DNA from: Fidelibacterota bacterium
GTDB lineage: Bacteria; Fidelibacterota; SORT01
Direction: 5' to 3'
Assembly (NCBI GenBank): GCA_022571215.1
Contig: JACZYG010000008.1
Coordinates: 1 to 64,000, forward strand
DNA: 64,000 nt
The translations under genes and the position numbers were made by a program. Shown piece by piece: positions 4,983 through 34,164 of this stretch (position 1 is the stretch's first letter; each line of letters opens with the position of its first letter). Under the pieces are notes generated by a model. It was not told the origin of the DNA, made no database searches, and was given only the letters and a program-made list of their open reading frames with translations.

Positions 4983-5462
4983 TTATCTCTTATACTTTTC
5001 TTGGAGCTTGGTTCTGACATAATCGGGCACATACTCGCTCACGTCACCGCCGAAACTCGCAACCTCTTTCACTATGGTGGAGTTAAGATGAATGTATTCC
5101 TGAGCCGGTGTCAGGAACACGGTCTCGACATCAGGATTTAATTTTCTGTTCATCAAGGACATCTGAAATTCGTACTCGAAATCAGAGACCGCTCTCAAAC
5201 CTCTGATCATGGCTGACGCGTTTACACGTTTCAAATATTCCGCAATCAACCCGTCAAATTGATCAACCTCTATTTTTTCTTCATTAACGAGCGCCTGACG
5301 GATCATCTCCACCCGTTCAGATAGATCGAACAAAGGTGTTTTTTGCGTGTTCACCGCTACCGTCACGATGATCTTATCAAAAAGTTTGGCGCTTCGGTAA
5401 ATAATATCTACGTGACCGTTCGTAATCGGATCGAAAGTTCCAGGATATACAGCTATTTTCAT
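4983..5462 (-). CDS. coaD: Phosphopantetheine adenylyltransferase
   Basis: Catalyses the penultimate step of coenzyme A synthesis, transferring AMP to 4'-phosphopantetheine. The 159 residues show the nucleotidyltransferase signature YPGTFDPITNGHVDII at the N-terminus and the second motif LNSTIVKEVASFGG near residue 130. This is the normal family length. The start overlaps the rsmD stop by 4 nt, the widespread rsmD-coaD pairing. Confidence 0.96.
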   Translation of the reverse strand: MKIAVYPGTFDPITNGHVDIIYRSAKLFDKIIVTVAVNTQKTPLFDLSERVEMIRQALVNEEKIEVDQFDGLIAEYLKRVNASAMIRGLRAVSDFEYEFQMSLMNRKLNPDVETVFLTPAQEYIHLNSTIVKEVASFGGDVSEYVPDYVRTKLQEKYKR

Positions 5463-5992
5463 TTGCCTTCCTCGAATATGTAAACCGTGGTTCTACCCAT
5501 TTTTTTTACACGGTTCGGTTTCAGAGGAAAATTCTCTTTCATCTTTGAAGATGCTTCCAAGACAAAAAAACCTTTTTCCTCTAATGAATTGGTGGCTGCG
5601 GATATCAATTCCGGCAGACTATCATATTTATACGGCGGGTCAGCCAATATCAGGTCCCATTGTTTCGAATCCCATTCTTTAAGCTGGTTTATCGAATCGT
5701 TACGAATAACTTTTACCTTTTCAGATGCGTTTATCTTATCAACATTGGTCTTGATCAGTTCCACAGCTTTGGCAGAGTGCTCAACAAATGTGACGCTCTT
5801 TGCGCCTCTGCTCAGCGCCTCGATACCGAGATTTCCGGTACCGGCGAATAGATCAAGTATCTTAGCTCCTTCTATACCGGTCATTACGCTAAAAATCCAT
5901 TCCTTCGTCCTGTCAGCAGTAGGACGGATCTCCGTACCGGGAAAACTTGAGAGCCGCCGACCACGATGGCTGCCGGATATTATCCTCACCAT
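5459..5992 (-). CDS. rsmD: 16S rRNA (guanine966-N2)-methyltransferase RsmD
   Basis: Methylates G966 of 16S rRNA. The 177-residue protein starts with RIISGSHRGRRL and the RPTADRTKEWIFS segment. It then has the SAM-binding motif LDLFAGTGNLGIEALSRGA and the catalytic ADPPYK (NPPY-type) motif. It is adjacent to coaD, as in many bacteria. All the expected motifs are intact. Confidence 0.95.
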   Translation of the reverse strand: MVRIISGSHRGRRLSSFPGTEIRPTADRTKEWIFSVMTGIEGAKILDLFAGTGNLGIEALSRGAKSVTFVEHSAKAVELIKTNVDKINASEKVKVIRNDSINQLKEWDSKQWDLILADPPYKYDSLPELISAATNSLEEKGFFVLEASSKMKENFPLKPNRVKKMGRTTVYIFEEGK

Positions 5993-5995
5993 GGA

Positions 5996-7039
5996 TCAGG
6001 ATAAAGCCTTATTGTTGGACATGATGAGATTAAGGTATAACGAAACCGTGGCTGATGCGGAATCTTGGCTTAGGATGGATGCTCTGGACAGTCCGTAAGC
6101 AACGTTAAGTTTTGCAAAAGAATCGATAAACTTGCTTATGGAATCCTTTGAACCGTTAGCGGTGATCGTTATCGGGATCGATGAACTTCCTCTCATCTGA
6201 ACCTTAGAGCTCGCTTTGAATTTAATCAATTTCAATCCATGCGCGGCGATGAGTGTGGTCAGTCTCGTCTTAAACGGTTTTGTTTTTAATAGGCTTTTTT
6301 TCTTTTCACTTGAATCCGGCACTCTCCCTTTGAATAGGACAGATCCGCTAAATTGGGTCGCATACGCGTATTCAGATACGGAATTGGAACGTTCAAACCG
6401 CGCAGCCCTTAGATTGCTCATCGGCCACTTTTCCCGTATTTTTCGAAGCAGCAAAGCAGCCTCTTCTCTTGAATTCATCCCTAATGCAAGAGTTACTCCG
6501 CTCCTGGAAACGGTCAGCTTCATATCGCTCATACCATCGTTTACCGATGATATAATGGAGCTGAAGACATCAAGAAGGATTCTTCCCTCAATTACCTGAG
6601 TTAATTGGTTTCCCCTCTTTTGAACTGCTTTATCCGGTGATTTCTTTGCGGGTCTACCCGGTTTGACTTTGCTTTGGCTCGGTTTAGTGGTAGTAGTGGT
6701 TTTGACCGTCGCAGGTTTTTTGGTCGGCGGTTTTTTAACCGATTTTTCAGCGATTTTGGTCTCTTTAGGGCTATCCATAGGAGTCTCGTCAGCCACGACC
6801 ATAGTGTCAGGAGTAGTGGTTTCATCGCCACCTGAGAACCAGCCCTGCAGATATGCTAAATACCCTGAACCCCCTATGGCGCCAACCATGAGGATAAGCA
6901 AAATCAGCTTCAGGTTTCCGCCCTTCTTTTTGGGTTTCTCTTTCTTAGCCGGCTCGGGTGTTTCTACAGAATTTTCTTCTTCCGGGGAAAACTCCTCCTT
7001 AGCAGGTTCCCCTTTCTTTAGTAAGTTTACCTTCACCAT
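5996..7039 (-). CDS. PilO-like single-pass membrane protein
   Basis: 347 residues. A charged cytoplasmic N-terminus (1-42) leads to one membrane helix (about 44-65, LKLILLILMVGAIGGSGYLAYL). A Lys/Pro/Thr-rich linker (about 95-140) and a periplasmic domain follow. The C-terminal 60 residues (IPITITANGSKDSISKFIDSF onward, ending in alternating hydrophobic strands) resemble the ferredoxin-like fold of PilO/PilN pilus-alignment proteins. It is 5 nt after a PilM-like gene, which supports this reading. The assignment rests on layout and weak pattern similarity, so it should be treated as a hypothesis. Confidence 0.5.
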   Translation of the reverse strand: MVKVNLLKKGEPAKEEFSPEEENSVETPEPAKKEKPKKKGGNLKLILLILMVGAIGGSGYLAYLQGWFSGGDETTTPDTMVVADETPMDSPKETKIAEKSVKKPPTKKPATVKTTTTTKPSQSKVKPGRPAKKSPDKAVQKRGNQLTQVIEGRILLDVFSSIISSVNDGMSDMKLTVSRSGVTLALGMNSREEAALLLRKIREKWPMSNLRAARFERSNSVSEYAYATQFSGSVLFKGRVPDSSEKKKSLLKTKPFKTRLTTLIAAHGLKLIKFKASSKVQMRGSSSIPITITANGSKDSISKFIDSFAKLNVAYGLSRASILSQDSASATVSLYLNLIMSNNKALS

Positions 7040-7044
7040 TAGAA

Positions 7045-8025
7045 CTATAAAACCTCATCTTCAATTATGGGTCTTATCGCCATTCCGAGCGTTTCGGTAA
7101 AACGACCTGAATTTTCGCTGAGCAGCTGTGAGGGGACAGAGTCGTGGAGTTCCAATCCTTTAAATGGGTCTACCTCAAAGATATTTACGTCATCGTGAAG
7201 CGCGGCGATATGGGCAAGCTGTTCACCCTTATGAGTTCCGCTATATATAAACAGCTTATCCACTACTTTTAGAGGACCGGAATCGTTATCAGCCGCTAAT
7301 GACTTTATCAATTCTTCAAAAGCTTTATCCTTTTCCGTCCTCCCCAGCAAGTAGGTGGAGCCGTCGTTCTCCACGTGAAAAAATGCGTTACCGGTAAACT
7401 CCCCGTCCTTGACTACCGTGACCGAATAATTGTCGTCATGATGCCTCACTATCGCCACTTTTCCAGTTCTTGCTTGAGCATAGGTAAATAATATGCTGTT
7501 TAATCCGGCAAAGATATCCACATCTACAAACTCCACCGGGATATCAACCGACGAACTTATAGATTGAAACATCTCGATAATGTTATTGTTTATGGCAACG
7601 GATAGATACTTGCTATAATTCGGCAGCTCATCTGTAAGGAGATAAGTATCAATCAAATAATCATTTGAAGTGTATCCAAGTTTTTTTACCGTTTCCCATT
7701 TGACAAATTCGTCTTTTTCATCATCCGGGAGCCCGGAATCAACATGATGAATGCTAATCAGGGACCATATACGATTCAAAGCAAATGATATAGAATTCGG
7801 GCGACCGGGTAGTCCTTGAATGATAGGCTCGAGATAAGAAAGGATTTTATCCTTGGCATCCGTACCGGAACTTGTTGCTGTCCAAAGCTCGTCCGAAGTT
7901 TCGACTTCGTTTACCGCAAGAATTTTTGTGCTCTTATCCTCATAAGCGACCTCCACCGAACGAAGAACATTTCCTTCAATAGTTACGCCAAGATTTGGCA
8001 GCTGATTATAGCTCTCATCGTTCAA
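7045..8025 (-). CDS. PilM-like actin-fold protein (putative)
   Basis: 326 residues, with no signal peptide or membrane helix. The N-terminal LGVTIEGNVLRSVEV recalls the first phosphate-loop segment of PilM/FtsA-type ATPases, and the end (TETLGMAIRPII) recalls the closing helix of the same family. PilM sits on the cytoplasmic side of the type IV pilus alignment complex and binds PilN. The gene lies between two genes for single-pass membrane proteins, as pilM does with pilN/pilO. The phosphate loops are not canonical, so nucleotide binding is uncertain. Confidence 0.45.
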   Translation of the reverse strand: MNDESYNQLPNLGVTIEGNVLRSVEVAYEDKSTKILAVNEVETSDELWTATSSGTDAKDKILSYLEPIIQGLPGRPNSISFALNRIWSLISIHHVDSGLPDDEKDEFVKWETVKKLGYTSNDYLIDTYLLTDELPNYSKYLSVAINNNIIEMFQSISSSVDIPVEFVDVDIFAGLNSILFTYAQARTGKVAIVRHHDDNYSVTVVKDGEFTGNAFFHVENDGSTYLLGRTEKDKAFEELIKSLAADNDSGPLKVVDKLFIYSGTHKGEQLAHIAALHDDVNIFEVDPFKGLELHDSVPSQLLSENSGRFTETLGMAIRPIIEDEVL

Positions 8026-8056
8026 TTTCTTTGACCCTTGAAACTTTCATTCTAAT

Positions 8057-9256
8057 TTACTGGTCGCTTCCAAGCCAGGACCGATCTCCATCATCGATGA
8101 ATCCGTGAATTGAATCCACCATAGTGAATACCAAATACCTTCTTTTGTAATAATCCTCTCTCAACCAGCGTCTGGGGGAGACAAGGATCAGTTCATCAAT
8201 TTTATCCTTCAAATCGCCAAGAGTGAACGAATAAGGAACGGTGCCGGAGACTATCGGTAATCTCCTTACAACTTTTTCCTCGACTTCCGCACTTTCCACC
8301 ATATCGCCGTCAACGGAATCAGGCGCTCCATCACTATCCGCAGCCATTGCCGCAGAATCTGATACGGCTGAACTGTCGGCAGCGAGCAAACTGCTGTCTA
8401 CCTCCGTGCCGTCCTCCGATTTCGCCATTGCCGAAGAATCTGATACGGCTGAACTGTCGGCTGCAAGTAAACTGCTGTCTACCTCCGTGCTGTCCGCCGA
8501 ATCCGCCATTACTTCGGTATGAGCCGGTTCCATCTGCATCATCAATAGAACTATAACATCTTCGTCATTATCGAAAAGCTGCTCGACTATCCCGAAAGTT
8601 TCGTCGTTTATGGTGCGATCATCAATTACTATCAACTCAGGTTTCCATTCCTTTTGCAAGGGCAGCACATCATGAATTTTGGCAAGCGTCTTTAACTCAT
8701 AATTGTCCTCTACTATTATTTCGGCGAATAGACTTCTCAGGGAATCGTCGGTCTCTACCATTGTAATTTTAAACGGATTTAACTCTTGCCTGATGGGACA
8801 CGCAATATAGATCGTTCTGTTATTCGCTATATCGACAATGTATCTTTCTTGAGCGAACGGACAACTGAACAGATCCTCATTGATCGGTCGGCTCATTAAT
8901 GTGTCAATCCTTGCTACAAGATCTCCTTGAGTATCTATTGCGTATATCATGGTATCTACCCTTAGCGTTTCCGCGCCGAAAAAATTTGTGTCAGCTTTTG
9001 CCGAGTCTATAGCCATTTGCACTATTTTCATCGCTTCTTCGGGTGACTCGGGGAATCTGTTAACCAATCTATAAAATTCAATTTCCAGCTCATAGAGGTT
9101 ATCCATCCGCACTCTGCATTCTTCTTTCAACGCTGCCTCTTCACTCCAAAGCGACTTCGGAACAAACAATACAGCAATGAACATCAACGCAAGTACAGCA
9201 ATAATTGCATCAAAATATGGTGATAGTCTTTTATCGTATAGCTTAATCTTGATCAA
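8057..9256 (-). CDS. Single-pass membrane protein with 27-residue tandem repeat
   Basis: 399 residues of no family I recognise. A short cytoplasmic start is followed by one membrane helix (about 16-34, AIIAVLALMFIAVLFVP) and a large extracytoplasmic part rich in acidic residues. Between about residues 245 and 310 there is an Asp/Ser/Ala-rich low-complexity tract made of two copies of a 27-residue unit (DSSLLAADSSAVSDS core). The ordered C-terminus contains RRWLREDYYKRRYLVF. Its place between comEA and a PilM-like gene suggests a PilN-like or pilus-linked role, but that is inference from context. Confidence 0.7.
   Translation of the reverse strand: MIKIKLYDKRLSPYFDAIIAVLALMFIAVLFVPKSLWSEEAALKEECRVRMDNLYELEIEFYRLVNRFPESPEEAMKIVQMAIDSAKADTNFFGAETLRVDTMIYAIDTQGDLVARIDTLMSRPINEDLFSCPFAQERYIVDIANNRTIYIACPIRQELNPFKITMVETDDSLRSLFAEIIVEDNYELKTLAKIHDVLPLQKEWKPELIVIDDRTINDETFGIVEQLFDNDEDVIVLLMMQMEPAHTEVMADSADSTEVDSSLLAADSSAVSDSSAMAKSEDGTEVDSSLLAADSSAVSDSAAMAADSDGAPDSVDGDMVESAEVEEKVVRRLPIVSGTVPYSFTLGDLKDKIDELILVSPRRWLREDYYKRRYLVFTMVDSIHGFIDDGDRSWLGSDQ
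8343..8504 (-). repeat. Tandem repeat, 81-bp unit, two copies
   Basis: Two adjacent copies (8343-8423 and 8424-8504) of an in-frame 81-bp unit inside the 399-residue membrane protein gene. They differ at only a few positions, such as GCAGCGAG versus GCTGCAAG. The near identity implies a recent duplication, and a third partial copy may precede them at the protein level. Confidence 0.85.
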
Positions 9257-9273
9257 AATTCCTCCGGATATTA

Positions 9274-9726
9274 TTATTTATTGGCGTTTTCACTGTTATC
9301 TCCTATGATAATGAATGGCTTGATCATATTCAGTTTATTTTTTCCTATGCCTCTAATGATTAGCAGATCATCCACAGATTTAAAATAGCCGTTGGAATCT
9401 CTCCTGTTGACTATCCGCTCCGCAATGACCGGCCCGATCCCGGGCAACAGCGTTAATCCGCTCGGTTTAGCTCTATTTAACTCTATCGAATGAAGCGTCC
9501 CGTCATCGTTTAGCTTTGTTATGTTGGAAGAAACATCATACTCCGACTGAAGCATTGCGGCAGCTTCCTTAAACTTCTTGTCTTCCGCAATCAACCTCGG
9601 GATCGATTCAGCTAACCTGTCTTCGACACTCTTATCTATGTAATAATCAACACCCATACCTAATATGAATGTCACCGCTAAAAAGCTTATAGCAGCTGAT
9701 TCTTTATCTGTAAAAAACTTTTTCAT
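9274..9726 (-). CDS. ComEA-like helix-hairpin-helix DNA-binding protein
   Basis: 150 residues. An N-terminal membrane helix (about 10-28) anchors a spacer and a C-terminal double helix-hairpin-helix. The latter has LLPGIGPVIAERIVNRR and then LLIIRGIGKNKLNMIKPFI, the ComEA signature. ComEA-type proteins bind incoming DNA in the periplasm during transformation. It is first in a run with the 399-residue protein and the PilM-like and PilO-like proteins, which together with dprA supports a competence role. It starts 40 nt after dnaJ ends. Confidence 0.85.
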   Translation of the reverse strand: MKKFFTDKESAAISFLAVTFILGMGVDYYIDKSVEDRLAESIPRLIAEDKKFKEAAAMLQSEYDVSSNITKLNDDGTLHSIELNRAKPSGLTLLPGIGPVIAERIVNRRDSNGYFKSVDDLLIIRGIGKNKLNMIKPFIIIGDNSENANK

Positions 9727-9765: not shown

Positions 9766-10920
9766 TCAATTATCCGCTGATAAATTGGCAAAGGAACCTT
9801 TTCCCATCATATCCGTAGGAGCGGAACCATTAGTCGCTTCCAATTTCACTAACAATGTTCTCTGCTCCTTACTGAGCTTTGACGGTGTCCAAACTTGTAT
9901 CCTGACCAATTGATCGCCCTTTTTGCTGCCGCGAACATCAGGCAGCCCCTTCCCTCTCATCCTTAATATCTTACCGGACTGAATGCCAGCCGGGATCTTC
10001 AGATTTGCTTTACCTGTAATTGTCGGAACTTCTATCTCGGTTCCCAACGCAGCCTGTGTGAAGGTAACTTTCGCCTCAAGAAGAACGTTTCGATTATCTC
10101 TGACGAAGTACTTATGCTCTTTGACTTTAATAAAGACTATCAGATCGCCTCGCGGCGCTCCTTGCTCACCCGAATTTCCGTCTCCCGTGAGAGTTAGGTA
10201 ATTGTCTGTATCCACTCCGGGAGGAATGTTGACGGAGATCGTTCTGCTCACCCTTTTTCTGCCGCTGCCACCGCAACTTTTACAGAGACGATTTATTATC
10301 TGACCCTCGCCATTACAATTCGAGCATGATTGAACATTTATGAACTGACCGAAGAGTGAACGAGCGACCTGTCTGACCTGACCCTGTCCCTGGCATACAG
10401 GACACGTTTTTTTACCGCTGCCCGGTTCGGCTCCGTTACCATGGCATACTTCACAACTCTCGTATCTTTTGATTTTCAGTTTCTTCTCCACACCCTTAAA
10501 CACTTCTTCAAGCGTGATCTCAAGAGTCAACTTCAGGTTACTTCCCCTTGCGGCGCGGCTACTTCTGCCGCGTTGCGATCCGAACGAATTACCGAACCCG
10601 CCCATTCCGCCAAAACCCTGCTCCATAAATGTCCGTAACGCATCCGAAAGATCAAAAGCGTCACCGCCAAAGGGATCAAATCCACCTGCTCCGGCGCCGC
10701 TTACCCCGGCTTCTCCGAATCGGTCGTATTTGGCTTTTTTCTCGTGGTCGGAGAGAACTGAGTACGCATGCGAAATGTTTTTAAAATCTTTTTCCGCCAT
10801 TTTGTCGCCTGCATTCCTGTCGGGATGATATTTCATAGCGAGCTTTCTATAAGCCTTTTTTATCTCCTCTTCAGTAGCGGAACGGTTCACCTCAAGTACG
10901 TCGTAGTAATCCCTTGCCAT
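9766..10920 (-). CDS. dnaJ: Chaperone protein DnaJ
   Basis: Hsp40 co-chaperone of DnaK. The J domain with YHPDRNAG (HPD motif near residue 33) is followed by a Gly/Phe-rich linker (about 75-125). Four CxxCxGxG zinc repeats come next ([32 protein letters not shown]), then the C-terminal substrate-binding domains. At 384 residues it is full length. It follows grpE directly in an hrcA-grpE-dnaJ operon. dnaK is not in this window. Confidence 0.97.
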
Positions 10921-12835: not shown

Positions 12836-13711
12836 TCAGATCTTCTCTCTTAGGTATTTCCTGACAGATATATTACTGCTGAACCATCCGAGGAAAAGAC
12901 CGAACAGCAGCATCCCTAAATAGATCTCGTTACTGATCTCTATCCTGTGCAGTGGTAAATACCCGCGAAGAACGATTCCCGCCACTTTATACGCTACTTC
13001 AAGAAATCCAACGGCTATTATTCCCGCCAACAAACCCTCCACCATCCCCTCAACTACAAATGGCCGTCTGATGAAACTATCCGTAGCGCCCACCAATCGC
13101 ATCGTCCAGATGAGGTCGCGCTTAGCGAATATTGCCAGCTTTATTGTGTACGAGGAGATCAGTACTGCCGCAAAGAGCACTATGAACCCTACTACCATGG
13201 CGATACCGATAAGAATTTTAATATACTTGTCTACAATCACTAAGAGGCTTTTTCTGTACCGCACCTCTTCGATATTATTCAAATTCGCGATCCTGCTTGC
13301 TATATAAGATGCGTCCACTGCAGTTCCAAATTCGGGAGATATCCGTACGATGAATGATGCCGGAAAGGGATTCGTTCCTAATATTGTCATGACGTTTTCG
13401 CCGAACTCTTTTTCAAATTTGCGAGCCGCTTGCGCGGGGGATATATAAGTCAGATCCCATACACCTTCTATCTTGCCGATATCCTTGGCTAATTGGATCA
13501 CAACTTCATCAGCTGTATCCATTTGAACGAAAACAGTGAGGTCGAATTGTGAACGTAAAAATTTTATAAACTTCTTTCCGTTCCATCCGACTACTGCGGA
13601 AGTGCCGACCATTGTGATCGCTAACGAAAGAATGAGTACCGCAAGAAAAGCTGCTCCCCTTGCCCTCCGAAGATTTTTAAAGCCCTCGCTAAGTGAAAAG
13701 AAGAAACTCAT
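12836..13711 (-). CDS. ftsX: Cell division protein FtsX
   Basis: Permease-like partner of FtsE that couples division to peptidoglycan hydrolase activation. In 291 residues there is an N-terminal cytoplasmic start (FSLSEGFKNLRRA), a first membrane helix (about 20-42), an extracytoplasmic domain (about 45-165) and three further helices (about 172-195, 222-245 and 260-280). This is the four-helix FtsX topology. The start overlaps the ftsE stop by 4 nt. Confidence 0.93.
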   Translation of the reverse strand: MSFFFSLSEGFKNLRRARGAAFLAVLILSLAITMVGTSAVVGWNGKKFIKFLRSQFDLTVFVQMDTADEVVIQLAKDIGKIEGVWDLTYISPAQAARKFEKEFGENVMTILGTNPFPASFIVRISPEFGTAVDASYIASRIANLNNIEEVRYRKSLLVIVDKYIKILIGIAMVVGFIVLFAAVLISSYTIKLAIFAKRDLIWTMRLVGATDSFIRRPFVVEGMVEGLLAGIIAVGFLEVAYKVAGIVLRGYLPLHRIEISNEIYLGMLLFGLFLGWFSSNISVRKYLREKI

Positions 13712-14382
13712 TCTGCCTGTACGTCAATTGAATCATCAGTAACTTTGCCGTCTTCAAGATGTATACGGCGAAAGCCCCTGCCATCTATCATATGGTAATC
13801 ATGCGTAGCCATGACTACCGAAGTGCCTTGTCGTTGAATACTGATCAGCACGTCTAAAATCAAATTAGAACTTTCGGGATCAAGGTTTCCTGTCGGTTCA
13901 TCGGCAAGGATCACATAAGGCTCCACTACCAAAGCTCTTGCTATAGCGACCCGCTGTTGCTCGCCACCCGAAAGCTGATCGGGAAAATGATAACGGCGAT
14001 GGTTCAGGTCCACCTGCGCAAGGACTCTCGCAGTCATCTTTTTCACGTCCGCGCGCTTATATCCTGTCGCCCTAAGAGCAAAAGCGATATTATCGTAAAC
14101 ATTTCTGTCTCCGAGTAATTTAAAATCCTGAAATATCATCCCCACCTTACGCCGGAGATAAGGAATCTGTTTTCGTGTGATAGTGCCCGAATCAAATTCC
14201 TCGACGGTGACCCGACCGGAACTCGGCTTGATGTCCATGTACAGTAGTTTGAGAATCGTGGTTTTTCCCGCACCGGTCGGACCGGTGATACAAACGAACT
14301 CACCCTTATTAATATCCAACGTTATACCCTCGACACCTATGGTATCGGTAAACCGCGCGGATACATTTGCTAAGCTTATCAT
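13708..14382 (-). CDS. ftsE: Cell division ATP-binding protein FtsE
   Basis: ABC ATPase of the divisome. The 224 residues show Walker A GPTGAGKTT, the Q-loop MIFQDFKLL, signature LSGGEQQR, Walker B VILADEPTGNLD and the switch histidine in ATHDYHMI. It is translationally coupled to ftsX. The upstream DUF423 gene ends 15 nt before it and may share its transcript. Confidence 0.95.
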   Translation of the reverse strand: MISLANVSARFTDTIGVEGITLDINKGEFVCITGPTGAGKTTILKLLYMDIKPSSGRVTVEEFDSGTITRKQIPYLRRKVGMIFQDFKLLGDRNVYDNIAFALRATGYKRADVKKMTARVLAQVDLNHRRYHFPDQLSGGEQQRVAIARALVVEPYVILADEPTGNLDPESSNLILDVLISIQRQGTSVVMATHDYHMIDGRGFRRIHLEDGKVTDDSIDVQAE

Positions 14383-25215: not shown

Positions 25216-26940
25216 TCAGGTTGAGAGGATAAGAAGAGTCACGTCATCCTGAGAAGAAATATCGTCGGCATGATTATCAACATCATTGACAATAGAGTCC
25301 AAAAGTTCCTTCGGAGATAGATGAAGATTACGTTTAACGTGGTCTATCAGCCTTTTTTCACCGTACTCATCCTCCTCTTTGTTTTCAGCTTCCGTGATAC
25401 CGTCGGTATACATTACGATTTTATCGCCTTTAACAATATCGATGGTTTCGGTCTTATAGTTGACCCCCGGCATCATCCCTATAATGAGACCTCCCTCCTC
25501 AAGCGGAGTCACTTCCCCCGTTTCGCTGAAACGTAAGGGCGGATTGTGACCGGCGTTGCAGTAAGTCAATTTTCTTGACTTCGGGTCGAGAACAGCCACA
25601 AAGAATGTAATGAATTTATCCGCAGTCGTATTTTCATATAAAATTTCATTTATCCGTCTTACGAGTAATCCAAGATCTGATTCGATGTTTATCAATGCCC
25701 TAAGACTCGCTTGCACATTGGACATCAGAAGAGACGCTCCTGCGCCCTTTCCCGATACATCCGCTATCGCCAACGCTACCCTGCCGTCATCAAGTTTAAT
25801 CACATCGAAGTAATCTCCGCCGACCTCCAGACTTGCCACATTTTTGCCAAACACCTCCCATTCCGTTCCGATATCAAAATCTGACGCAAGAAGTCCTTGT
25901 TGAATTTCTCTCGCGATGTTCAATTCTTCCTGAAGCCTCTGTCGCTCAAGCGATTCCTTGAATAATCTCGCGTTTTCAATCGAAATTATCGCCTGTCCGC
26001 CCATTGTGTGCAGAAATTGAAGATCTTCAGGCGAAAAAGGGTTGTTTCCTTTCCTCTCTTCGATGCAAAGAGTCCCCTTGTTTTCGCCCTGTATTGCCAA
26101 AGGTATCAGAGCTGCGATATTAGCCTTACGGAGAGCCTTATGCAGCTCGTCCCTCTTGTTTCTCACAAGCAGTGGTTCGCTGAATCCGGTTATTTGATCT
26201 ACGTACGGAGAGAGTATTTCGATATTCTCCTGTGAAAATCCTTTTCCGTGAAATAATTCGAAAGAGCCTTCTGTTTTCAGATACAACAGAAACTTACTGA
26301 CCATCAACTGCCCCATCAGAGCGTAGCCGAACTGTTTGACTATCTCATCTAAGTCAAGCGTTGAATTCAGTTCCTTACCAAGTTCAAATAGAGTTTGAAG
26401 CTCTTGATTTTTCCTGTCCAAGCCTCTGTTTGCGCTTTTTATATCGGATACAATAAGCGCGTTCTCAATTGATGATGCCGCGAGGGAGAGTAGCGAAGAG
26501 ACGTAATTTATCTCTTCATTCTCATACTTCTTCCCGAGAAGCCGCTTTCCGAATGCCAAAATTCCCATAATGCTGCCCTTTCGCATAAGTGGAAAGAGAA
26601 CTTCAAGATTTTGTTCAGCGAAGAATTTCCGTAAGGGATTCGTGTCATCCAAGTCATAGACGGGAGAGAAACTTTCGGGCAGATCGGTGTATTTCACTGT
26701 CTTTCCCTCTGAAGCGCTATTCAATCCTTTAGATTTGATCAGCTGTAGTTTATCCTCACCCGCTATGATCATGAAAGCGGATTTTTGGATCATCAAGCGA
26801 CCCATAAGCGATAAAAGTACCTGCTCGATTATCGATTCGTAATTCGTTAGTGAGCTGAGCCTGCTGCTGACCTCAAACAGATCGTTGAGGTCTTGCTCTC
26901 TCTCTTCAAGATATCTTCTGTTCGCATTCTCAGGGGACAT
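25216..26940 (-). CDS. Double-GAF PP2C phosphatase of RsbU/SpoIIE type
   Basis: Dephosphorylates an anti-sigma antagonist in a partner switch. I start it at the ATG at 26940 (MSPENANRRYLEE). The longer frame up to 27108 would run through a MITE-like repeat and encodes nothing recognisable. The 574 residues contain a coiled start, two GAF domains (about 20-170 and 190-335) and a SpoIIE domain (about 370-574). The SpoIIE domain has GGDYFDVIKLDDGRVALAIADVSGKG and VMYTDGITEAEN, so the metal-binding aspartates are present. No membrane helix is seen. It ends a run of partner-switching genes. Confidence 0.9.
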   Translation of the reverse strand: MSPENANRRYLEEREQDLNDLFEVSSRLSSLTNYESIIEQVLLSLMGRLMIQKSAFMIIAGEDKLQLIKSKGLNSASEGKTVKYTDLPESFSPVYDLDDTNPLRKFFAEQNLEVLFPLMRKGSIMGILAFGKRLLGKKYENEEINYVSSLLSLAASSIENALIVSDIKSANRGLDRKNQELQTLFELGKELNSTLDLDEIVKQFGYALMGQLMVSKFLLYLKTEGSFELFHGKGFSQENIEILSPYVDQITGFSEPLLVRNKRDELHKALRKANIAALIPLAIQGENKGTLCIEERKGNNPFSPEDLQFLHTMGGQAIISIENARLFKESLERQRLQEELNIAREIQQGLLASDFDIGTEWEVFGKNVASLEVGGDYFDVIKLDDGRVALAIADVSGKGAGASLLMSNVQASLRALINIESDLGLLVRRINEILYENTTADKFITFFVAVLDPKSRKLTYCNAGHNPPLRFSETGEVTPLEEGGLIIGMMPGVNYKTETIDIVKGDKIVMYTDGITEAENKEEDEYGEKRLIDHVKRNLHLSPKELLDSIVNDVDNHADDISSQDDVTLLILST

Positions 26941-27078
26941 AATTAGACAATTATACGACCGTATTTCTAATAATTCAACGGATAAGGCAGCTGTTGAATG
27001 ACTGGATTGTCCGGCATCGGCGGTGGCTCTTTCAAACGGTACGCGCCACTTTGTATCGTCATTGCGTATCAGTCTACT

Positions 27079-27167
27079 GTCTTTGCGAGCGAAGCGCGGC
27101 AATCCCATTCTTCACGCGAATTAATTCCGAGATTGCTTCGATCTGATGAATCAGGTCTCGCAAAGAC
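27079..27167. repeat. MITE-like inverted-repeat element, copy 2
   Basis: Bounded by GTCTTTGCGAG and CTCGCAAAGAC, with inner GGCAATCCC and GAGATTGC segments. It is related to copies at 15131, 38920 and 45780. Confidence 0.75.
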
Positions 27168-28206: not shown

Positions 28207-30228
28207 TTACTTGATTTTCATTATTATCATCGTTACATCGTCGTGGACAGGTTGTTTACCCATATGATTCCAGATGTCGGATATCAATTTCGCTTTAATC
28301 TCTTCTGAACTGAAATCGAAATTATTCTTCAGCGATTTTTTTATTCTCTCCTCACCAAATTCTCTCTGATTTTCATCCATGGCATCGGAAACTCCATCGG
28401 TATAAAAATAATACAGTTCATTACTATTGAGTTTCTGTTCTTTTTCTTCGATTATTTTGTCGAAGATACCGCCTTTGTCCAGTCCGAGGCCGATACCTTT
28501 AGGTTCTAAGTTGATCCATTCATCTTTATTCCTGTTGTAGTACATGATCGGCATATGTCCCGCTCTCGCATATTTCATTTTATTCTTCTTCTTATCAATT
28601 ATCGCATAGGTCAACGATACAAACGAGCGGCGATCCATGTTGCCATGCAACGCTCTGTTTACGTCGCAGAGTATCTTGCGGGGCGAATCATATATCCTGC
28701 TATAGGCTTGAATCATTCCCTTGATCTCCGCCATATAGAACGCGGCGGAGGTTCCTTTACCCGAAACGTCTCCGATGACCATGCCGAGACGGTCATCGTC
28801 AATTTCTATAAAATCGAAATAATCCCCGCCAACCTCGGTTGCCGGCATGCTCGCCGCAGCCAGGTCTATTGAATCCGAAGGAATAGGCACTTCTTTGGGC
28901 AGCAAATTAAGTTGAACCTCATGCGCCAATCTCAATTCATGTTCGAGCCTCTCCTTATCAAGAGATTTTTTTACTAATTTAGTATTCTCAAGAGCGATGA
29001 CGATATGATTAGTAAATGCTCCGAGCAGATTAATATCGTCATTATCAAAACCGTACTCTTCGTTTTTCGCCGCGTATAATATTCCGATAACATTTGAATC
29101 GGATATCAACGGATAACCGACAAGGGACTTCACATCAGAATTCCAAGAACTCAGATGCCTCGTACCCGACTGCCTCAATACATCCTGCGCGATAAAAGGT
29201 TGTTTACTTTCGAATATCGTACCGCTCGTGCCTTCCGTTTTACTGAAATTCATATTCTGCTGTTGTTCCCGGCTTAATCCATAACTTGAAGAGAGATAAA
29301 AATGATTGGAATCCTCTTCAGTGAGCACTAACCAGGAGTACTGAGAATTTGAATATTCGGCGGTAAACTCTGAAATCATCTCAGCGAGTTTATCGAAGTC
29401 AAGAACGGAACTTACCGATCGGCTCAGCCTCTGTAATGATTCTATCTCCCTAATTTTTTTGTCGAACAGGGTTGCCGTGGGGAGATGCAGCAATAATCCG
29501 ATTAGCGCAAATGCCGTATAAATGGAGATGAATCCCGTGGAGAGTCGTACGAATATTTCCACACTGTAGCTATATTCATAAATAGCGCTCCCGTCAACAA
29601 GATCTTGAAGCATCGCAGAGAAAGCCACAATTATCAAACTGACTAAGAGTATCTGATATTTCTGCTTTTTCGACAGATAGGCTATCCATGAGACCCTAAA
29701 TGAGTTGAACACAGCAAACCCGACAGGAATCATAGCAACAGTCAACATCTGCTGGAAACCTTTTGAGCTCAACCCGCCAAAGATAGAAACCAGTGAAATG
29801 GATATGACCAATAACGCAAACAGTCGAGCCGTACTTTTTCGCCGTTTGAAATAGATGAGGTCGCGCAGCTGAATCAAAGCGATAATGCTTAACAAGGAGT
29901 AAATTATGGATGTGAGCGCGTATCCCGTCACTGAACTGAAGGCGGGAAGAATCATGATCCTGCGGATGTAGGAGAACCCGAAAAACAGAAGCACAGTGAG
30001 CAACAGAACCCGGAATTTTCCTGTAGTCTCCGCCGGTCTCAAAATCTTTATTGAGGATAACAGCGGGACAAATCCCACTACTGCGCCAAAAAGAAGAATT
30101 TCCCTTAACCAGGAGAGACCTTCTATCACCCCTGTATGAAGGTAGAAAAGCGTGTCACCGATATAAACAAGTAGGAAAACACCGACCGGGAGAAATATCA
30201 GCAGCAGATCTTTCTTAAATATCTTCAA
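28207..30228 (-). CDS. Membrane-bound GAF-PP2C phosphatase (RsbU/SpoIIE type)
   Basis: 673 residues. About seven hydrophobic helices fill residues 8-255, the first being LLLIFLPVGVFLLVYIGDTLF. A GAF domain (about 275-420) and a SpoIIE phosphatase domain (about 445-673) follow. GGDYFDFIEIDDDRLGMVIGDVSGKG and YYFYTDGVSDAMDENQ show intact metal-binding residues. It probably senses a membrane or envelope signal and dephosphorylates the adjacent STAS protein, while the soluble paralogue at 25.2 kb gives a second input. Confidence 0.9.
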   Translation of the reverse strand: MKIFKKDLLLIFLPVGVFLLVYIGDTLFYLHTGVIEGLSWLREILLFGAVVGFVPLLSSIKILRPAETTGKFRVLLLTVLLFFGFSYIRRIMILPAFSSVTGYALTSIIYSLLSIIALIQLRDLIYFKRRKSTARLFALLVISISLVSIFGGLSSKGFQQMLTVAMIPVGFAVFNSFRVSWIAYLSKKQKYQILLVSLIIVAFSAMLQDLVDGSAIYEYSYSVEIFVRLSTGFISIYTAFALIGLLLHLPTATLFDKKIREIESLQRLSRSVSSVLDFDKLAEMISEFTAEYSNSQYSWLVLTEEDSNHFYLSSSYGLSREQQQNMNFSKTEGTSGTIFESKQPFIAQDVLRQSGTRHLSSWNSDVKSLVGYPLISDSNVIGILYAAKNEEYGFDNDDINLLGAFTNHIVIALENTKLVKKSLDKERLEHELRLAHEVQLNLLPKEVPIPSDSIDLAAASMPATEVGGDYFDFIEIDDDRLGMVIGDVSGKGTSAAFYMAEIKGMIQAYSRIYDSPRKILCDVNRALHGNMDRRSFVSLTYAIIDKKKNKMKYARAGHMPIMYYNRNKDEWINLEPKGIGLGLDKGGIFDKIIEEKEQKLNSNELYYFYTDGVSDAMDENQREFGEERIKKSLKNNFDFSSEEIKAKLISDIWNHMGKQPVHDDVTMIIMKIK

Positions 30229-31558: not shown

Positions 31559-32770
31559 CTACTTTACAGCGTCGTACATCCCCCACATTGGCAAGAAAAT
31601 TCCAAGCGCAATTATCAGGATAAACACTCCAATTATGACGGTCATCATCGGCTCAACCATTGCGGAAAGTCGTTCTGTCAGATATTTTACTTCCTCATCA
31701 TATTGCCTGAAAATACTAACAAGCATTTCGTCCAATGAGCCGGCATCTTGTCCCGTTTTTATCATCCTGATGGTCATTGGAGGAAACAAATGCCCCTTCT
31801 CTAACGCCTCCGCCAAACCTGTGCCGATCTCCACGTCTAAACGGGCATGATCTATCTCTCTGCTGATTGCAGCGTTTCCCGCGGTTTCGGAACAGATTTT
31901 TAACGCTTCGATGATATGTATTCCACTTGTGTTCAATGTTTCAAGCATATGGGTGAAACGTGATATGGAATTTTTAAGGAACAGCGGTCCGAATACCGGT
32001 AATTTCAGCTTGAACCCATCCCACAGCAAACGCCCTTTCGTGGTGCTCAATATTCTGCGTGTCAAATAGATGGTCAATCCCAGTATTGAGAACGCTATAT
32101 ACCAATAATCCGTTATGATAGAATTCATCAATAGCAGCATCTGTGTAATTATCGGAAGTTCGACCCCCGAACGCGCGAACATCGTCGCGAATTTCGGGAT
32201 AATAAACGTAACCGCAAAAACGAACGCCATGGAAAGAGCTACCATTACAATTATGGGATACCTCATTGCGCTTTTTATACTTTTTTTAACCGATTCGTCA
32301 TGCTCCATAAAATCGCTAAGTCTCTTCAGCACATCTTCCAGCACACCGGCGCTTTCTCCTGCTCGAACCATATTGACATACAGGTTGGAAAAGGTGGATT
32401 TATGCTTCAAAAGAGAATCTGAAAAGCTCGCTCCCGCGCTTACGTCCGCTATGAGCGACCCGATGATACCTCTGAACTTTTCATCATCAGTCTGATCGTG
32501 GAGCGCATCAAGCGCAGAGACTATCGGTACTCCGGCGCCGATGAGAGTGGCGACTTGTTTAGTAAAATTAGCGATATCAATGCTGCTCACTTTCTGGAAC
32601 CGGTCAAAGAAGTTGACACTCGCGCTTTTTTCTTTCTTTTCCTTGATCTCTATCGGGAAATATTCCTGCTGATCCAAAAATTCATTAACATCTTGCATTG
32701 AATCTACACTCAATGACCCCGTAAATATCTCTCCAGCCATATTCTTCGCTTTATATGAAAATTCAGGCAT
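31559..32770 (-). CDS. pilC: Type IV pilus/type II secretion inner-membrane protein PilC/GspF
   Basis: Platform protein that works with the assembly ATPase. The 403 residues have two T2SSF domains (about 70-190 and 270-395) and three membrane helices (about 170-195, 220-240, 375-395). The N-terminus FSYKAKNMAGEIFTGSL is typical. GAGVPIVSALDALHDQ and MVRAGESAGVLEDVL match the first T2SSF repeat, and MIKTGQDAGSLDEML the second. The start overlaps the sigma-54 activator stop by one base. Confidence 0.93.
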   Translation of the reverse strand: MPEFSYKAKNMAGEIFTGSLSVDSMQDVNEFLDQQEYFPIEIKEKKEKSASVNFFDRFQKVSSIDIANFTKQVATLIGAGVPIVSALDALHDQTDDEKFRGIIGSLIADVSAGASFSDSLLKHKSTFSNLYVNMVRAGESAGVLEDVLKRLSDFMEHDESVKKSIKSAMRYPIIVMVALSMAFVFAVTFIIPKFATMFARSGVELPIITQMLLLMNSIITDYWYIAFSILGLTIYLTRRILSTTKGRLLWDGFKLKLPVFGPLFLKNSISRFTHMLETLNTSGIHIIEALKICSETAGNAAISREIDHARLDVEIGTGLAEALEKGHLFPPMTIRMIKTGQDAGSLDEMLVSIFRQYDEEVKYLTERLSAMVEPMMTVIIGVFILIIALGIFLPMWGMYDAVK

Positions 32771-34164
32771 TATGCTTCCTGGGAATTCGGCTCCCTTATC
32801 TCTCTCTTAATCGTTAAGTTGTAGCGTTTCAGTTTATTATACATAGTCGCTCGGGTTATACCCAAGGCTTTTGAAGCCCGCTGGATGTTTCCGTCGGTAA
32901 AACGCAAGGCATTGAGTATCGCATCCCTCTCCACTTTCTTAAGAGTCGTTATCGGTTCGGTTACCGTTTCTTGCTCGGCTGTTGTTTCCTTTCGCCCTAC
33001 AGATTCTCCGGACAACGAAAAATCTTCAATTCTTAGCAGACCCTCTTTGGAGCTTACTATGGCTCTGTTGATAGAATTCATGAGTTCCCGCACATTGCCC
33101 CGCCATTCGTTCTTGTTCAATAGGTCATAAGTTTCAGGTAGAATTGAGATATGTCTTTTATCCGTCCCTATTATCTGCTTAAGTATGGATGAGGCAAGTA
33201 TGGAAATATCGTCTTTACGCTCTCTTAACGACGGCAATTCGATAGGATAGACGTTGATACGGTGATATAGATCCTCCCTGAAACGTTTTTCCCTCACTTC
33301 CTCTTGAAGGTCTTTATTTGTTGCGGCGATAAGCCGGACGCTCACTCCCTTCTTCAGTATGCCGCCAACACGCTCTAATTCACCTGTCTCGATAAACCGG
33401 AGTATCTTCGCCTGCAGCGGCAAACTCATATCGCCGATTTCGTCAAGGAACAGAGTGCCGTTATTTGCGGCTTCGAACTTCCCAATTTTATCAGCATACG
33501 CCCCGGTGAACGCTCCTTTATCATAGCCGAAGAGCTCGCTCTCCTGTAAACTTTCCGGTATGGCGGCGCAATTGACCGAAACGAACGGTTGATCTTTCAA
33601 ACTGCCGTAACGGTGTATGGTCTTTGCGGCAACCTCTTTTCCGGTGCCGCTTTCACCGGTGATCATCACCGTTATATCTGAATCCAATATTCTGTCTATC
33701 TTAACATATAACTCCTGGGACGCTTTACTGTTCCCGTTAAAGTCGCCATATCCCTGTAAGAAAATGTGGAGCAGATCCGGTCTTTTCATCGAGGATGATA
33801 ATTCCTTGAAGCTCATCGCCTCTTCAATATTTTTCACAAGCGATTCGGGAGATAACGGTTTAAAAAGGATATTATAGGCGCCCGCCTGATATCCCTCCGT
33901 CACCTTCGGATAATTATTTGTATCCGCCATCAGTATTACCGGAATTCTATTGACAAGTCTCCTCATCTTTTGTAAAACCTTTACCGGGCTGATCATCGGA
34001 ATATCCATGCTCATCAATATCAGATCGGTCCGATTTATTGCAAGCCACGCGAGAGCATCAAAGCCGCTGCTCAGCGCATCTATGGTCCAACCCTCCCTCT
34101 CACCTAATTTCTGAATCGCAGCTCTGCTTTTCGAGTCAGGATCGATCAGTAATATATGTCTCAT
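32770..34164 (-). CDS. Sigma-54-dependent activator with degenerate receiver
   Basis: 464 residues: receiver-like domain (1-118), AAA+ domain (about 140-370) and Fis-type helix-turn-helix (about 410-455, ending in ATMYNKLKRYNL). Walker A is GESGTGKE (170-177) and the sigma-54 contact loop GAFTGA (217-222) is intact. A gapless alignment to NtrC puts S52 at the phosphoacceptor aspartate, A80 at the conserved Thr/Ser and P9 at one acidic-pocket aspartate. Only K102 is kept. It therefore probably activates transcription without aspartyl phosphorylation. It lies between pilB and pilC, as PilR-like regulators often do. Confidence 0.9.
   Translation of the reverse strand: MRHILLIDPDSKSRAAIQKLGEREGWTIDALSSGFDALAWLAINRTDLILMSMDIPMISPVKVLQKMRRLVNRIPVILMADTNNYPKVTEGYQAGAYNILFKPLSPESLVKNIEEAMSFKELSSSMKRPDLLHIFLQGYGDFNGNSKASQELYVKIDRILDSDITVMITGESGTGKEVAAKTIHRYGSLKDQPFVSVNCAAIPESLQESELFGYDKGAFTGAYADKIGKFEAANNGTLFLDEIGDMSLPLQAKILRFIETGELERVGGILKKGVSVRLIAATNKDLQEEVREKRFREDLYHRINVYPIELPSLRERKDDISILASSILKQIIGTDKRHISILPETYDLLNKNEWRGNVRELMNSINRAIVSSKEGLLRIEDFSLSGESVGRKETTAEQETVTEPITTLKKVERDAILNALRFTDGNIQRASKALGITRATMYNKLKRYNLTIKREIREPNSQEA

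Follow-up and report, generated by a model that had tools for sequence, protein, structure and literature searches.

Where PilMNO proteins are encoded, a pilus or a DNA-uptake system is usually assumed. The passages of PMC5805733 that deal with PilN report that its highly conserved N-terminal motif binds PilM, and parts of PMC7613929 describe PilM as FtsA-like and PilM-PilN binding as resembling that of FtsA and FtsN. As set out in sections of PMC11870540, a PilMNO relative in Campylobacterota, FcpMNO, forms a flagellar cage or scaffold and is encoded in its own operon, independent of the type IV pilus (T4P) genes. Here we analyze a cassette beginning with a comEA-like gene in a 64,000-nucleotide stretch of DNA (the window) from a Fidelibacterota bacterium (assembly GCA_022571215.1, contig JACZYG010000008.1, positions 1 to 64,000), which lies on contig C33 of a source genome of 2.56 Mb. 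We propose, with a probability of about 0.6, that the products of the three genes downstream of comEA form a scaffold in the inner membrane that stands alone, works without a pilus and descends from the PilM-PilN-(PilO) subcomplex of T4P. Within the literature searched (preprints not covered), no description of PilM or of this cassette in Marinimicrobia was found.

All four open reading frames (ORFs) lie on the minus strand, with topologies as described in an earlier sequence-only reading of this DNA. The comEA-like gene (150 residues; 9274-9726) is followed by genes for a 399-residue single-pass protein (8057-9256), which is the class-specific long form of a family termed p258, a 326-residue PilM-like protein with a TTG start (7045-8025) and a 347-residue PilN/PilO-like single-pass protein (5996-7039). 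A Kyte-Doolittle scan gives one transmembrane (TM) segment each in the ComEA-like, 399-residue and 347-residue proteins and none in the 326-residue protein. The source genome belongs to Candidatus Marinimicrobia, and its closest named relatives are MT.SAG.3 and MT.SAG.2 (80 and 79% identity in the 326-residue protein). The p258, PilM-like and PilN/PilO-like genes, that is, comEA excluded, are referred to below as the trio. The p258 family was surveyed in 245 draft, incomplete genomes of Candidatus Marinimicrobia, and gene neighborhoods were read at 39 loci from 39 genomes, some of them cut by contig ends.

Judged by homology, the 326-residue protein is a divergent PilM. It scores 27.8 bits against Pfam PilM_2, marginally above the cut-off of 27, and 16.4 bits against the NCBIfam PilM model TIGR01175, below the cut-off of 133. 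PilM_2 matches 8 of 24 phylum members at E values up to 1 (best 7.3e-11), and when a profile of 24 rows (alignment A5) is compared with PDB sequences the PilM chains rank best (3jc8, 3.1e-5; 5eox, 0.0064). Against 27 canonical PilM proteins (27 of 30 loci kept after filtering), hhalign gives probabilities of 97.0 for A5 and 95.8 for 16 cassette PilM proteins. The PilM-like gene was found in all five genomes of the window's class. Left out of A5, as of the alignments of the 347-residue protein (A6) and of p258 (A4) used below, are L019, L021, L025 and L028, near copies in the case of A4, and L005; A6 also leaves out L023, L024, L029 and L036, and A4 leaves out L035-L038, which are cut at the 5' end.

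The 347-residue protein appears to combine a PilN-type N-terminal tail, through which PilM binding is presumed, with a PilO-like core. Its cytoplasmic tail reads MVKVNLL (7019-7039, minus strand), and the pattern [IVLMK][KRG][ILVF][ND][LF], composed after inspection of the 20 aligned relatives, is present in 20 of 20. At the periplasmic end, residues 263-322 (6074-6253, minus strand) match the Pfam PilO family PF04350 at 19.8 bits, under the cut-off of 22, and the same model matches 3 of the 20 relatives (best E 6.4e-5), while PilO is the top PDB match of the 20-row A6 profile (E 0.0096). In 18 of the 39 loci (L101, L103, L105-L110, L116, L117, L119-L122, L133-L136) the PilM and PilN/O genes form a single fused frame of 463-623 residues after p258. 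The N-terminus of these fusions matches the cassette PilM (hhalign probability 99.3) and the C-terminus matches the PilN/O alignment (89.2), and this homology at both ends argues for joint action of the two proteins. Fused proteins of a family of streamlined genomes, f13, match the other fusions at a probability of 99.4; at L118 the frame downstream of p258 is in pieces. The sequence-only reading placed a pair of a PilM-like and a PilN/PilO-like protein, far from the usual families, beside comEA in a conserved order, and the scores, the profiles and the 39 loci bear this out.

The remaining member of the trio, p258, is an undescribed family of single-pass proteins. A profile of 20 rows (A4) detects it in 227 of the 245 genomes, 90 of the 94 better genomes and 83 of 84 genera, and every Pfam and NCBIfam family falls under its own cut-off. 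A second alignment (A9) takes 30 of the 39 p258 proteins, all 30 of which have a single TM segment, and a C-terminal signature, RRYLVF...HG.I.DG..SW (8075-8143, minus strand, in the window), is conserved in both A4 and A9. Of the 50 rows in A4 and A9, 39 have their more positive TM flank on the N side, and therefore p258 is predicted to be N-in. In the 399-residue protein the helix spans residues 14-32 (9161-9217, minus strand) and contains D16, 17 residues before the conserved P33. Across 60 rows from 57 genomes (three genomes being present twice, L023/L128, L033/L129 and L034/L130) the residue at this position, inside an otherwise hydrophobic helix, is E in 28, N in 23, D in 5, S in 3 and K in 1. 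Type IV pilins have the same spacing, from Glu5 to Pro22, in their membrane helix. The best three PDB matches of the A9 profile are pilins (E 0.06, 0.17 and 0.2; GspG follows at 1.9), and the p258 helix matches pilin residues 3 to about 50 without a shift of register. Unlike pilins and pseudopilins such as PilA and GspG, p258 lacks a prepilin cleavage motif, since position -22 from the proline is mostly L, F, R, I or Y and neither G nor A is among its eight commonest residues in the 60 rows, and its globular domain is unmatched. Kinship with pilins is only suggestive because the direct tests were weak: a local pilin hidden Markov model did not clearly rank p258 above unrelated ORFs, and hhalign gave a probability of 6.2 (P 0.006, in register). 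The proposal that the 399-residue protein is itself PilN/PilO-like was not upheld, its nearest, weak resemblance being to this N-terminal pilin helix. The family also includes a 744-residue form (L131:2640-4871, genome G234, family f30), and a partial f30 frame in L035 apparently contains repeated copies of a helix-plus-beta unit that is single in other p258 proteins.

If the trio were part of a pilus or of a DNA-uptake machine, it should vanish along with those machines. A T2SSF (PilC) match is found in 143 and ComEC in 127 of the 245 genomes, and p258 is present without PilC in 91 genomes, without ComEC in 106 and without both in 53, nine of which, according to the genome tables, have a completeness of 90% or more and no more than 5% contamination. 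The clearest case is f13, which comprises 24 genomes of 0.4-1.0 Mb. Here p258 is retained in 22 of 24, and no T2SSF, ComEC, secretin, flagellar rod or ComEA-type HHH_3 match was found in any of the 24. The type II secretion system (T2SS)-type ATPase model T2SSE is over its cut-off in none of them; the matches below it cover about 20-50 residues and are read as noise from the ATP-binding motif, and a longer one in G059 (78 residues, 24.0 bits against a cut-off of 24.9) contains two stops. ComEC and p258 are largely retained in families f4 and f25, in which PilC is mostly or wholly missing. As judged from these distributions the trio is independent of T4P and ComEC, and it probably does a job other than pilus assembly or DNA uptake.

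The same data bear on whether the cassette is a second alignment complex for the cell's own pilus or type II secretion machine, sharing the PilB, PilC and PilD genes that the sequence-only reading placed 22 kb away. PilMNO-type proteins usually serve such machines, and the PilC gene is indeed at that distance (31559-32770, with a T2SSF match), while PilB and PilD are assigned by reading only. Against this, 91 p258 genomes have no T2SSF match, f13 comes close to keeping the trio without any T4P or T2SS gene, and the window's own genome already has a canonical locus on another contig (C12; L139:104-5388 of G000) that encodes an ExeA-like ATPase, a PilM-PilN fusion of 676 residues, PilO, a secretin and a PilP-like protein (named by reading, except PilM) and is adjoined by genes for several N_methyl pilin-like proteins. 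A pilus alignment complex, as first suggested, is thus unlikely. Like the type IVa PilM-PilN-PilO(-PilP) proteins, the cassette has a cytoplasmic PilM homologue, an NL tail on a single-pass partner, a PilO-like periplasmic core and fused PilM-PilN forms. It differs from them in having p258 in place of a separate PilO or PilP gene and in occurring without motor, platform or secretin, with the canonical copies separate in the same genome. Near the window's pilus genes, reading also suggests a sigma-54-type response regulator gene (32770-34164), located between the PilC and PilB genes, and two genes for GAF plus PP2C-type (RsbU-like) phosphatases (25216-27108 and 28207-30228).

The comEA-like gene behaves differently from the trio. 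Its product, with a TM segment at residues 12-30 and an HHH_3 domain (62.3 bits, cut-off 27), resembles the ComEA DNA receptor, but this likeness extends to just the first gene of the cassette, and that gene is inconstant at the locus. It lies directly upstream of p258 in 26 of the 39 loci, 24 of these in genomes with ComEC, and is absent from 13, of which 12 lack ComEC and 6 are in f13 (Fisher p 2.8e-7 for the association, uncorrected for kinship). Since comEA is lost together with ComEC and the trio is kept, comEA has the appearance of a DNA-uptake gene lodged in the operon, with the trio independent of it. The order p258-PilM-PilN, with local losses, is the part of the proposed four-gene order that recurs among relatives, and a constant comEA is not. 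One locus, L114 (G074), has a tandem pair of comEA-like genes upstream of p258. The sequence-only reading favored a role in DNA uptake, in which all four proteins of the cassette would together steer DNA, or a competence pilus, through the envelope. The frequent adjacency of comEA is consistent with this, as are the presence of ComEC in the same genome, a DprA-like gene (by reading) in the window and the retention of ComEC with p258 in f4 and f25. However, 106 of the 227 p258 genomes have no ComEC match, and f13 retains the trio's p258 with none of the uptake or pilus components recognized, and we regard such a role as quite improbable.

The gene order around the trio is conserved far beyond the window's class. 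Over the 39 loci the consensus is ftsEX-(hrcA)-grpE-dnaJ-[comEA]-p258-PilM-PilN-rsmD-coaD, with local losses: rsmD follows p258 in 36 loci, dnaJ precedes it in 38, ftsX in 31 (including all six f13 loci) and ftsE in 28, and PilM is recognized at an E value of 0.1 in 29. In the window the minus-strand order is ftsE, ftsX (together 12836-14382), hrcA, grpE, dnaJ (9766-10920), comEA, the trio, rsmD (5459-5992) and coaD, the names other than comEA being assigned by reading, with intergenic gaps of 3 to 31 bases from comEA to rsmD. Values of w between 0.05 and 0.27 show that the cassette genes evolve under purifying selection. In two f13 genome pairs w is 0.048-0.052 for p258, 0.092-0.118 for RsmD and 0.27 for the fused protein, so that p258 in f13 is conserved at least as strongly as RsmD. 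The presence in all five class genomes, the recurring order and the purifying selection indicate that the cassette is not a chance arrangement. Fused and shortened forms, and an f13 fusion frame that is split, might suggest decaying pilus genes kept by chance in a housekeeping operon; the selection values refute this reading, as does the persistence of p258 in 22 of the 24 streamlined f13 genomes, and we consider it extremely improbable.

A number of observations weigh against a pilus-free PilM-PilN scaffold. The absence of any single gene means little in genomes that are incomplete, and a PilM match at an E value of 0.1 is missing from 10 of the 39 loci; one of these is truncated where its contig ends, and in two the frame is broken up. 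Compared directly, an f13 fused protein gives hhalign probabilities of 0.1 with canonical PilM and 3.0 with A5, and its putative PilM kinship is accepted only via a chain of intermediate families; in one f13 genome (L137) the fused frame is split in two. The AlphaFold2 model of the 347-residue protein contains two ferredoxin-like alpha-beta-beta stretches, but its predicted local distance difference test score (pLDDT) is 39.2, and that of the 399-residue protein is 31.4, both from three-row alignments. The gene neighborhood, too, may reflect inherited order and not function.

With these points in mind, we suggest how a scaffold of this kind could work. An actin-fold PilM-like protein on the cytoplasmic face would grip the MVKVNLL tail of the PilN/PilO-like protein, which would in turn dimerize or build rings via its periplasmic cores. 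With its N-in/C-out topology, a pilin-like helix and no prepilin cleavage site, p258 would stay in this complex as a fixed subunit on the periplasmic side, and the whole would need neither a DNA channel nor the motor, platform and secretin of a pilus, comEA being a separable neighbor that takes part in DNA uptake. Such a complex would most likely organize some envelope process, and the neighboring FtsEX gives the strongest hint of which one: this adjacency, together with the likeness of PilM-PilN to FtsA-FtsN, suggests an envelope or division role. A stronger version, in which the trio is a dedicated FtsEX partner and resembles FtsA and FtsN as a module that serves division or the remodeling of peptidoglycan, could draw on the conserved upstream ftsX and on the resemblances described in parts of PMC7613929, but its evidence lies in a neighborhood where hrcA, grpE and dnaJ intervene and no division role is visible in the sequences, and we consider it rather unlikely. 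The closest described parallel to the proposed scaffold is the FcpM/FcpN/FcpO cage, which, in the sections of PMC11870540 concerned, is likewise a stand-alone, T4P-independent, PilMNO-derived operon with its own conserved neighborhood. FcpMNO is there associated with flagella, whereas the flagellar rod domain Flg_bb_rod is found in 46 of the 245 genomes and only 44 of the 227 p258 genomes, and the cassette has p258 as an additional subunit. A flagellar-cage role was ruled out by the absence of Flg_bb_rod matches from f13 and from the window's own genome, and the trio thus also appears to be independent of flagella.

Within the window's class, p258 has a further feature. An insertion that separates the conserved CPI segment from RRYLVF in the 399-residue protein (residues 163-249; 8510-8770, minus strand) appears to be a degenerate receiver-like domain, predicted to lie outside the cytoplasm. 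Among the aligned p258 proteins it is restricted to this class. The insertion matches NblR at 1.3e-5 in the 399-residue protein, the NblR and ActR models match four of four class members at E values up to 1 (best 2.9e-6, NblR), and the profile of the class alignment A1 matches Spo0F in the PDB at 1e-4. Like the receiver domains of Spo0F and NblR, the insertion keeps the phospho-acceptor position, the aligned D212 being invariant in the class, as is E168. It differs from them in its predicted extracytoplasmic location, in the apparent loss of the conserved Thr and Lys (Met and Tyr in the alignment as read by eye) and in being interrupted by a repeat loop, and phosphotransfer seems unlikely because the insertion is predicted to be outside the cytoplasm. 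The loop, which is rich in Ser, Ala and Asp, is encoded by an 81-bp tandem repeat of 2.1 copies (8343-8510, minus strand), the internal repeats noted earlier, and it is missing in the two other genera of the class.

It is tempting to see in the trio a phylum-defining envelope machine, in which PilM-PilN was freed from the pilus in the ancestor of the Marinimicrobia, an uncleaved pilin-like protein was added as a periplasmic subunit and the result became a core apparatus, possibly with FtsEX, to which one class added an outside receiver fold; this is a tentative possibility that we put forward as doubtful. Annotation of such genes as pilus or competence genes would mislead, since the module is near-universal in the phylum and survives where a pilus was not found. 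The proposed scaffold would be a second case of reuse of the PilMNO module, after the flagellar cage of Campylobacterota, and p258 emerges from the analysis as a core family of conserved proteins in abundant ocean bacteria.

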